This document shows, one piece after another, positions 6,474 through 16,572 of a DNA stretch of 22,773 bases. The notes beneath the pieces were generated by a model. The model was not told the DNA's origin, did no database searches, and worked only from the letters and a program-made list of their open reading frames with translations. How positions within the stretch are numbered: position 1 is the first letter of the stretch; each line of letters opens with the position of its first letter. Made by a program: the position numbers and the translations under genes. This DNA comes from an uncultured Eubacterium sp. (lineage in GTDB: Bacteria > Bacillota > Clostridia > Peptostreptococcales > Anaerovoracaceae): contig UQRM01000035.1 in assembly GCA_900543485.1 (NCBI GenBank), positions 1 to 22,773 on the forward strand, given 5' to 3'.

Positions 6474-6516
6474 CTACCTTTCCGCTGCCGCCTGAGGAAT
6501 CTTCACCGCCGCCAGC
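6474..6516 (-). other. xpt/bmp junction: probable deletion point
   Basis: Two reading frames overlap here. In the xpt frame the conserved VESLAAV is followed by IPQAAAER and a stop, which does not resemble a normal Xpt C-terminus. In the -1 frame the same bases encode AGGGEDSSGGSGK, the spacer of the BMP lipoprotein. The shared GC-rich string GCTGGCGGCGG could be the recombination point. Missing between them are the last xpt codons, any intergenic region with SD, and the bmp signal peptide. Confidence 0.7.
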
Positions 6517-7040
6517 GATTCCACGGTATAGCCCTTTTCTCTGAGTCTGCGGCTGCCTCCCTGGAATCCTTTCTCAATGACCGCGCCTATGCCGATCACC
6601 TTTCCTCCGGCCTGCCCGACTATCTCCGTAAGCGCCATAGACGCTTCTCCATGAGCCATGAAGTCATCGATTATGAGAACTTTCTCGCCGGCCGTCAACA
6701 GATCCTTGGCTACCCTGAATTTGGAAACGGTCCCCTTGGTGAAGGATCTGGCATCCGCCTCATAAAATCCGTCATTCATCGTACTCGGCCTGGCCTTCTT
6801 GGCAAACACCACCGGCGGATATCCAAAGCACGGCGCCGTAAGACATGCCACAGCAATACCGCTGGCTTCCACCGTCAGTATCTTATCGATCTCGCTGTCC
6901 GCGAACCTCTTCCTGAACTCGGCTCCGATACGCTCCAGGAACCCGATATCCAACATATGATTGAGAAAGTGATCCACCTTCACTATCTCGGTGCCTATGG
7001 CGACACCCTCATTCAAAATCTTTTCCTTTAATTCTTTCAT
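6474..7040 (-). CDS. xpt: Xanthine phosphoribosyltransferase, altered C-terminus
   Basis: Cytoplasmic purine-salvage enzyme converting xanthine and PRPP to XMP. The start is the ATG at 7040 (MKELKEKILNEGVAIG), since longer reading in this frame only overlaps the upstream gene. Residues 18-40 (EIVKVDHFLNHMLDIGFLER) and the PRPP-binding loop VLIIDDFMAHGEAS (121-134) match Xpt closely, followed by GIGAVIEKGFQGG. B. subtilis Xpt is 194 aa; here 188 codons, but the last ~8 residues (IPQAAAER) read out of the family pattern because of the junction with bmp. The active-site regions are upstream of the change, so activity may be retained. No purine riboswitch leader precedes it: it sits 13 nt after the DivIVA-like gene. 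Confidence 0.92.
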   Translation of the reverse strand: MKELKEKILNEGVAIGTEIVKVDHFLNHMLDIGFLERIGAEFRKRFADSEIDKILTVEASGIAVACLTAPCFGYPPVVFAKKARPSTMNDGFYEADARSFTKGTVSKFRVAKDLLTAGEKVLIIDDFMAHGEASMALTEIVGQAGGKVIGIGAVIEKGFQGGSRRLREKGYTVESLAAVKIPQAAAER

Positions 7041-14506: not shown

Positions 14507-14551
14507 TGGTGGAGCATAGGGGGTTCGAACCCCTGACCTCATGACTGCCAA
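14507..14551 (-). other. Prophage attachment site (attR type): displaced 3' half of tRNA-Ala(GGC)
   Basis: On the minus strand the segment reads as a tRNA 3' half: anticodon loop TTGGCAG with anticodon GGC, stem TCATG, variable loop AGGTC, T arm AGGGG-TTCGAAC-CCCCT, acceptor strand ATGCTCC, discriminator A and encoded CCA. The matching 5' half (acceptor GGAGCAT, D arm, 5' anticodon stem) is absent: sequence upstream of the loop is unrelated. This is the signature left by a tyrosine integrase that inserted into a tRNA gene and displaced its original 3' end; the reconstituted gene should be at the other prophage end. Alanine identity follows from the anticodon loop. Confidence 0.8.
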
Positions 14552-15020: not shown

Positions 15021-15764
15021 CTACACATTTATATGTACAGCGTTACCCATCTGTGCCGTGTTGGCATAACTATAAGCTGCACCATACTTATACGCCAGAT
15101 TCACAACGGCATTTCTTCCCGCTCTGGTGTTGGTTACGCCTGGGATATAAATATCCGCTGCCTTGCCCTTGGTATGCGCACTGCCGGATACGCCGCCAAC
15201 CTGAGCATTTCTCGTAGCACAACGCTGGCCGGATGTGATCGTTATCGGCTTACCATAGTACGCTCTAATCTTTTCTAGTATGTTGAGCAACTTTGCCGAT
15301 GTGTTCCCTGCCGGATATCCATTGCAGTATCTACCGCCACAGCTGCACTCAAACTCGCTCTTCGCAAAATGCGCAGAACTTCCGCCGGAGGCCGCACTGG
15401 TGGAACCGGACGAACCCGATCCGCTACGCAGCTTCGCCCACGTAGCCTGTCCAGCGCATCCGTCTGCTGTCAGGCCCAGCTTTTTCTGCACGGTCTTTAT
15501 AGCTGCCGCAGTCTTCTGCCCCAGCACGCCGTCGACAGTCAGCCCTGCGCCACATTTGTTCAGTAACGTCTGCAGTTCCTTCGTTACCGCCACAGCCTTT
15601 GCGTTCGTCTTCGTCCCCCAGATACCGTCCTGCGACAGGCCGTATCCTCTCTGGAATTTCTTTATAGCCGCTTTAGTGCCGGACCCGGATATACCATCCA
15701 GTGCGCCAGTATAATAGCCATAGTTATATTTTAGAAAATACTGTCTATATAAAACCGATATCAT
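15021..15764 (-). CDS. Phage endolysin: two peptidoglycan-binding repeats and M15 peptidase
   Basis: 247 aa from ATG 15764 (MISVLYRQYFLKYNYGYYTG), chosen because it overlaps the previous stop (TAATG) behind a GGAG site; an upstream in-frame start at 15803 would overlap that gene. Residues ~14-60 and ~62-112 are two PG_binding_1 modules (DGISGSGTKAAIKKFQ, DGVLGQKTAAAIKTVQ), then a Gly/Ser linker. The C-terminal ~115 residues form an M15-type peptidase: FECSCGGRYCNG, ITITSGQRC, SAHTKGKAADIYI with His197 and Asp204, and the final AVHINV with His244, the expected zinc set. It would cleave peptide stems in the host wall at lysis, after the holin has opened the membrane. Confidence 0.92.
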   Translation of the reverse strand: MISVLYRQYFLKYNYGYYTGALDGISGSGTKAAIKKFQRGYGLSQDGIWGTKTNAKAVAVTKELQTLLNKCGAGLTVDGVLGQKTAAAIKTVQKKLGLTADGCAGQATWAKLRSGSGSSGSTSAASGGSSAHFAKSEFECSCGGRYCNGYPAGNTSAKLLNILEKIRAYYGKPITITSGQRCATRNAQVGGVSGSAHTKGKAADIYIPGVTNTRAGRNAVVNLAYKYGAAYSYANTAQMGNAVHINV

Positions 15765-15780
15765 TACTCTACATCTCCTT
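15762..15780 (-). repeat. 19-bp direct repeat, copy at the Tad2-like/endolysin junction
   Basis: Minus-strand AAGGAGATGTAGAGTAATG, containing an SD (GGAG), the end of the Tad2-like gene and the overlapping stop-start TAATG of the endolysin. An identical copy is at 16277-16295; bases on either side differ. Confidence 0.95.
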
Positions 15781-16279
15781 TCAAACTTTTCGCAAAGACC
15801 CAATCTTCAGCAAGCATGTCAGCCTGAGAAGCAAGCCACCCCATCTGCACGCCAGATGTTCCAACAAATGCAATCGCCTGGTTTCCGATTGCGTTATGGT
15901 TACAGTTATGTTTCTCTCCGTCCGGAGTCAGATAGCTGATATTCTTTGCCAATTCGATATACTGTTTTTTTCCGTTCCAGCCCTTGCGAGCAACTTTCAA
16001 TCCTCGTTTAAGGTATCTAATCGCATCAGAGAAACCGAACATTGCTTCACCTCCAAGCTGAGGGCAGTTCTTCTCGTCAGCAAGTTGCCATTCATCAGAG
16101 CAGATATTAAGTGCGGTATATTCAACCATCTTTGTCGCTCTAATATCCAGTTCCTCGCCATTCTTGGTGTGCATTATAATAGTCTCTTTGTCTGCATCCC
16201 AATACCAATATCCGCCCCATGAAGGAAGCTTTATCTTTGCCCCTTCTTTCATCTTTTCGAACGCTTTTTTAAACTCCAT
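15764..16279 (-). CDS. Two-domain DUF2829 protein, Tad2-like (Thoeris anti-defence family)
   Basis: 171 aa. The C-terminal half (81-163) is a full DUF2829 domain: FGFSDAIRYLKRGLKVARKGWNGKKQYIEL and GWLASQADMLAEDWVFA. The N-terminal half (1-70), MEFKKAFEKMKEGAKIKLPSWGGYWYW ... MVEYTALNICSDEWQLA, repeats the same layout in diverged form: opening FxxAFxxMKxGxKI, WGGYW, and closing SDEWQ. Tad2 proteins of this family bind the Thoeris signal molecule (glycocyclic ADP-ribose) as multimers of a single domain and so block immunity. Here two domains are fused. It is coupled to the holin (TAATG) and to the endolysin (TAATG). Anti-Thoeris activity is inferred from family membership only. Confidence 0.82.
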   Translation of the reverse strand: MEFKKAFEKMKEGAKIKLPSWGGYWYWDADKETIIMHTKNGEELDIRATKMVEYTALNICSDEWQLADEKNCPQLGGEAMFGFSDAIRYLKRGLKVARKGWNGKKQYIELAKNISYLTPDGEKHNCNHNAIGNQAIAFVGTSGVQMGWLASQADMLAEDWVFAKSLKGDVE

Positions 16280-16295
16280 TACTCTACATCTCCTT
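16277..16295 (-). repeat. 19-bp direct repeat, copy at the holin/Tad2-like junction
   Basis: Minus-strand AAGGAGATGTAGAGTAATG, identical over 19 bases to 15762-15780. It holds the SD, the last holin codons (GDVE, the same residues that end the Tad2-like protein) and the overlapping TAATG. Confidence 0.95.
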
Positions 16296-16572
16296 CCTCA
16301 ACTTCTTCAAACACAGCTCCATCGCTGCCGTCTCCGTCCTCTTTAATTGCTTTGAGCGTGTTCTGCGCCTCCTGCGCCGCCGCGGTTACGTTGTTGTTCT
16401 TCCACCACGACCACAGCGTGGACAGCCCTGCTGCCGCCACCGTCAACCATTCTGTAAGCTGTGCTTCGTCAAACGGTATCGGGTTCTTTCCCGCCAGCGT
16501 CAGCACCATGTTTACCATCAGCACTGCCATTACGATCAGTCGTATGATTGCGTCTCTCTTCTGATTTTTCAT
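16279..16572 (-). CDS. Phage holin, SPP1 type
   Basis: 97 aa. Two hydrophobic segments (AIIRLIVMAVLMVNMVLTLAG and LTVAAAGLSTLWSWW) separated by NPIPFDEAQLTEW, then WKNNNVTAAAQEAQNTLKAIKED and an acidic tail. This is the SPP1 holin (BhlB-like) pattern, including the ...WWKNN..T.AAQ... motif. It makes membrane lesions that release the endolysin. ATG at 16572 with GGAGG 8 nt upstream. A stem-loop ends exactly at that SD, so expression may be timed at translation. Confidence 0.92.
   Translation of the reverse strand: MKNQKRDAIIRLIVMAVLMVNMVLTLAGKNPIPFDEAQLTEWLTVAAAGLSTLWSWWKNNNVTAAAQEAQNTLKAIKEDGDGSDGAVFEEVEEGDVE

Follow-up and report, generated by a model that had tools for sequence, protein, structure and literature searches.

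A tandem Tad2-like gene between holin and endolysin of a prophage: a constant N-terminal domain joined to a C-terminal domain with a putatively exchangeable middle

The locus studied here raises the question of what a fused pair of Tad2-like domains does between the lysis genes of a prophage, and which of its parts could decide what it binds. The window, i.e. the whole stretch of DNA that was analysed, comprises 22,773 nucleotides of contig UQRM01000035.1 from an uncultured Eubacterium sp. The interval 15764..16279 contains one minus-strand ORF, which encodes 171 aa. The stop of the holin gene overlaps its start, and the start of the endolysin gene overlaps its stop, both times as TAATG. The features are as follows.

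16279..16572, minus strand: SPP1-type holin (PF04688, E 3.2e-21; phrog_263)
15764..16279, minus strand: tandem Tad2-like gene, 171 aa (ORF; phrog_1048 over residues 1-164, E 1.1e-54)
16070..16279, minus strand: N-terminal Tad2-like domain, residues 1-70, diverged, constant among relatives
15785..16045, minus strand: C-terminal canonical Tad2 domain, about residues 79-165
15839..15967, minus strand: putatively exchangeable middle of the C-domain, residues 105-147, cassette type T1
15021..15764, minus strand: endolysin, with PG_binding_1 (two stretches) and Peptidase_M15_3 (domain families)
16277..16295, no strand assigned: 19-nt repeat, copy 1, at the holin/Tad2-like junction
15762..15780, no strand assigned: 19-nt repeat, copy 2, at the Tad2-like/endolysin junction, 515 nt from copy 1

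On the upstream side of the holin, a 2004-aa phage protein (16743-22757, minus strand) has an M23 peptidase at its C-terminus and matches phrog_22978 over a long stretch; a 2568-aa counterpart is found upstream of the tandem Tad2-like gene of the relative L081. At the other side, between host-type genes on the left and the lysis end of the prophage, a stretch at 14507-14540 (minus strand) resembles the 3' end of a tRNA. We take it to be the end of a tRNA-Ala gene, and it is probably the prophage boundary in the form of an attachment-site copy. ARAGORN reported no whole tRNA in this region.

The initial annotation had described the product as a fused, asymmetric pair in which a diverged copy precedes a canonical DUF2829/Tad2 domain, and predicted models together with profile homology bear this out. 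The whole protein matches PF11195 with 84.5 bits and the C-half alone with 72.5 bits, the curated Pfam cut-off being 25. The N-half alone gives a weak match (17.0 bits, E 0.0087) which is below this cut-off; it is thus termed Tad2-like by fold and homology and not counted as a Pfam member. Structure prediction, run as a single chain (pTM 0.74), placed the Tad2 fold in both halves. The N-half thus shows neither the absent match nor the different fold that would have spoken against the annotation. The C-domain carries the signature RxGWNGK ... WLxSQxDxLAEDW, and R98, G100, W101, G103, W148, S151, D154 and W160 are invariant in an alignment of 62 rows. In the same rows the N-half has invariant W21, G23 and W25, and D45, R47, T55, N58 and W64 are kept in at least 90%. 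When the motifs of the two halves were aligned with each other, the N-half was seen to keep W21, G23 and W64, and its K17, T55 and N58 stand where the C-half has R, S and D; it is without the SQxD motif, and its loop lacks R and NGK. In the C-half, the loops corresponding to those around the published pocket retain the motifs of the family. Judged by motifs and regions, the pocket may be kept in the C-half.

The fused form itself is widespread, which the same annotation had missed. A protein search returned 6396 proteins at E <= 0.001, and 110 of the best 120 are of two-domain size (160-172 aa). Residues 1-164 match positions 31-195 of 211 of phrog_1048, so that one profile spans both halves and the two-domain family had already been grouped; no function is attached to phrog_1048 in the library. 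Among 299 genomes of one family, that to which the genome of L082 (Faecalimonas umbilicata) belongs, a Tad2-like match was found in 12 and a match to the two-domain alignment at E <= 1e-20 in eight, in six of them at full length. Each domain also occurs without the other: the C-domain stands without the N-domain in, for example, L114 and L120, and the N-domain without the C-domain in L133 and in an annotated 75-aa gene of RG-TP1. In other relatives the C-domain is preceded by Phage_gp49_66 (L116), or an HTH domain stands ahead of the tandem pair (L058).

Several further arrangements were observed. In L175 (3679-4203) a Prp cysteine protease is fused to the N-terminal Tad2-like domain and the C-domain is absent. 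In L109 (7740-8321) a DUF4406-like domain (21.4 bits, Pfam cut-off 22) is fused ahead of the Tad2-like C-domain. L003 (3496-4197), as well as P0055 and P0113, has three Tad2-like units per chain by way of an extra N-terminal unit; the first 70 residues of L003 score 17.9 bits against the Tad2-like profile, which is under the Pfam cut-off, and the cluster of P0113 has 1775 member sequences. L078 has a second, separate Tad2-like gene (6483-6812, 46 bits) directly behind the tandem gene.

The most variable part of the protein appears to be not the N-half but a segment inside the C-domain, which the initial annotation had overlooked. The N-domain, the C-domain up to WNGK and the terminal W..SQ.D..AEDW are constant across relatives, and the segment of about 30-54 residues between these two conserved motifs can differ outright among close relatives, as if swapped. 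Between L015 and L061, residue identity amounts to 94% for the first part, drops to 10% for the middle and recovers to 73% for the tail. At the nucleotide level, blastn aligned L061 and L029 at 88% over 1042 nt up to about codon 104 and again at 93% over 471 nt beginning at the terminal motif; it gave no alignment between these two points. On a fine scale this pair shows 96-100% identity just outside the gene, 60-96% in the N-domain part and 16-43% in the middle, so the whole gene is a hotspot with its middle as the extreme. L027 and L067 are 94% identical over 6.7 kb around the gene (blastn), yet their middles are of different type. The middle would thus seem to be exchanged as a cassette between close relatives.

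The middles were sorted into types in 94 non-redundant proteins (114 of 120 parsed; L075, L086, L171, L209, L175 and L214 were dropped). Ten types were obtained. Pairs of the same type are 60% identical up to WNGK and 70% in the middle; pairs of different type are 59% and 19% identical, respectively. T1, the type found in the window, accounts for 74 of the 94, a share that is overstated because one of the two patterns of the first locus scan was of T1 type. With the N-domain pattern alone (80 of 137 relatives kept) T1 was found in 46 of 70 non-redundant loci; the others comprise 22 of non-T1 type, one of which (L209) is broken off, and two that have the N-domain without the C-domain. On a tree of the first part, which is poorly resolved (109 columns, 33 of 90 inner branches open), the ten labels require 18 changes, the minimum being 9. 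Shuffled labels gave a mean of 19.9 and in none of 200 shuffles was the number as low, so the labels are slightly clustered, as recent copies would make them. T1 against the rest requires 17 changes, as compared to 18.4 in shuffles (as low in 108 of 500), and the starred branches force at least 5. Middle type follows descent weakly on this tree; its exchange is not fully free of descent.

How does this segment relate to what is known of Tad2? SPO1 Tad2 is reported (PMC12043709) to be a homotetramer with its pockets between protomers. In that description the beta1-beta2 and beta3-beta4 loops form the pocket together with the terminal helix, and cyclic dinucleotides are bound by an insertion. 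The exchanged segment covers what lies between the beta1-beta2 loop and the terminal helix; by this description, it would fall in the region bearing the messenger-contacting loops. SPO1 Tad2 is reported to bind gcADPR and ModTad2 His-ADPR (PMC13299392). The titles of the PDB entries of solved C-domain relatives name SPO1 Tad2 with gcADPR, ModTad2 with hisADPR, SptTad2 with cGG, and AcrIIA7 with 1',2'-cADPR and cGG. The portions of PMC12043709, PMC13299392 and PMC11722364 that were covered make no mention of a tandem Tad2 or of exchange of its middle.

Comparison with the solved proteins brings out the difference further. Both halves of the window's protein are predicted to share the fold of SPO1 Tad2 (gp34.65, PF11195), and the signature is kept in its C-domain. 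The PDB search matched seven Tad2/AcrIIA7 sequences, of which six consist of one domain in a chain of 88-104 aa (9kzr has 158), whereas the window's protein fuses two unequal domains. Its best PDB sequence match is AcrIIA7 9kzr (8.3e-10), over the constant parts, and its T1 middle gave no good alignment to any of the seven. The chain of AcrIIA7/HgmTad2 (8kbi and others, 9kzr) is 104 aa long, against about 82 residues for the C-domain here; the middle of AcrIIA7 does not align with that of the window's protein but does so with the longer middle of the relative L067. ModTad2 (8v3e and 9eib, hisADPR complex) is likewise a single domain, to which L080 aligns through the middle better than the window's protein does. 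The best solved matches of the relatives differ: AcrIIA7 for L067 (1.1e-16), ModTad2 for L080 (3.3e-17), SPO1 Tad2 for L061 (7.8e-12) and AcrIIA7/SptTad2 for L060 (about 4e-13). These cassette scores are hints and not ligand assignments, since the constant parts add to them.

From this analysis we consider it probable that the gene encodes a late-made counter-defence sponge of the Tad2 kind, with which the prophage would sequester a nucleotide-type alarm messenger and which combines a constant half with a swappable segment. Two chains could together make up a body of four domains, equivalent to the homotetramer of single-domain Tad2. The constant N-domain would then supply the fixed half of the interface or of the pocket, and the swappable middle of the C-domain may set which messenger is bound. 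Points that weigh against this reading are the lack of a good alignment of the T1 middle to the solved sequences, the lack of Thoeris enrichment in carriers, and the poor resolution of the tree together with the slight clustering of the labels on it. We hold more tentatively, as a serious possibility, the narrower proposal of a modular sponge of gut phages with constant N-domain and variable C-domain, in which only the segment of about 30-54 residues is recombined to retarget immune messengers and the constant half serves as shared scaffold or as a second, fixed pocket.

It could also be that each half binds a messenger of its own, independently of the other half, one messenger being fixed and the other variable, and that no pocket is shared. 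The conservation of the N-domain described above is consistent with such a role, as are the occurrence of this domain on its own in L133 and RG-TP1 and behind Prp in L175, and that of the C-domain alone in L114 and L120. On the other hand the N-domain is devoid of the SQxD motif and its loop of R and NGK, and one domain may not suffice if the pockets lie between protomers, as is reported for Tad2 (PMC12043709). We regard independent binding as rather unlikely.

The position of the gene bears on its function as well. It had been called odd for an anti-defence gene to lie among lysis genes, but this view did not hold: relatives occupy late operons. Neighbours were called by a longest-ORF rule, and 97 non-redundant of 119 loci were searched with 34 reference proteins, the lysis and head references being checked or annotated in phage records. 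When a locus was assigned by a head gene within 3 kb or a lysis gene within 2 kb, nearest first, 42 of the 97 were near head genes and 24 near lysis genes; 31 stayed unassigned, six of which have less than 2 kb of DNA on one side. Dropping one lysis reference that was not confirmed as a holin (L021, phrog_18218) alters no count. The lysis position is thus one of two usual late positions. Accessory neighbours within 1.5 kb at the 97 loci include DUF6275 (31), nucleoside-deoxyribosyltransferase/DUF4406-like proteins (17) and Prp protease (9), and a gene which we take to be PGDYG-like stands in seven. A DUF6275 neighbour is seen, for example, in L064 (5733-6008). The nucleoside-deoxyribosyltransferase-like neighbour might act on the same messengers as the Tad2-like protein.

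A lysis-linked accessory, such as a timing factor for holin and endolysin that uses the Tad2 fold outside defence messengers, would agree with the TAATG junctions to both neighbours, with the 24 relatives near lysis genes and with phiRg507T2_3, in which the order of holin, Tad2-like gene and endolysin is identical to that of the window. Yet more relatives, DO134P1 (L141) among them, lie near head genes, and exchange of the middle fits a role in recognition better than one in lysis. It should be noted here that a related holin-endolysin pair does without the gene. The holin of L224 is 53% identical to that of the window, its endolysin follows 73 nt on (66% identical in the best segment), and there is no gene between them. 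We consider a role as lysis accessory quite improbable. In the window a perfect 19-nt repeat, which includes the ribosome-binding stretch and TAATG, brackets the Tad2-like gene. The gene with one junction copy thus has the appearance of a unit inserted at the holin-endolysin junction, i.e. an optional insert which would have brought its own copy of the coupling signal. A shared stretch of at least 15 nt at the corresponding places was found in just one of 93 relatives. An anti-CRISPR role, suggested by the name of AcrIIA7, a single-domain member of the fold which (as 9kzr and 8kbi) ranks with the nearest solved proteins in sequence and fold, is very improbable in view of entry 8kbk, in which AcrIIA7 is complexed with 1',2'-cADPR and cGG, and of 8kbj, the same sequence deposited as HgmTad2.

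For a sponge of the Tad2 kind, late expression could coincide with messenger production triggered by the capsid. Thoeris is reported (PMC12043709) to sense the phage major head protein, and late expression would hence suit an antidote. Thoeris itself was not enriched in carriers, as ThsB_TIR was found in 5 of 18 carrier genomes as compared to 76 of 299 genomes of the L082 family (G002 and G010 belong to both sets). Of the 299, 12 genomes have a Tad2-like match, and five of these carry ThsB_TIR as well.

What would most merit a test by specialists is the apparent exchange of the middle while the frame stays constant. If the putative sponge acts as proposed, the timing of counter-defence would be tied to the late genes, at the stage when defences triggered by the capsid fire. 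Should the choice of messenger lie in the exchanged segment, the natural cassettes would be a key to the alarm molecules of gut bacteria, perhaps including unknown ones; for T1, the commonest type in these samples, no solved structure was matched through the middle.
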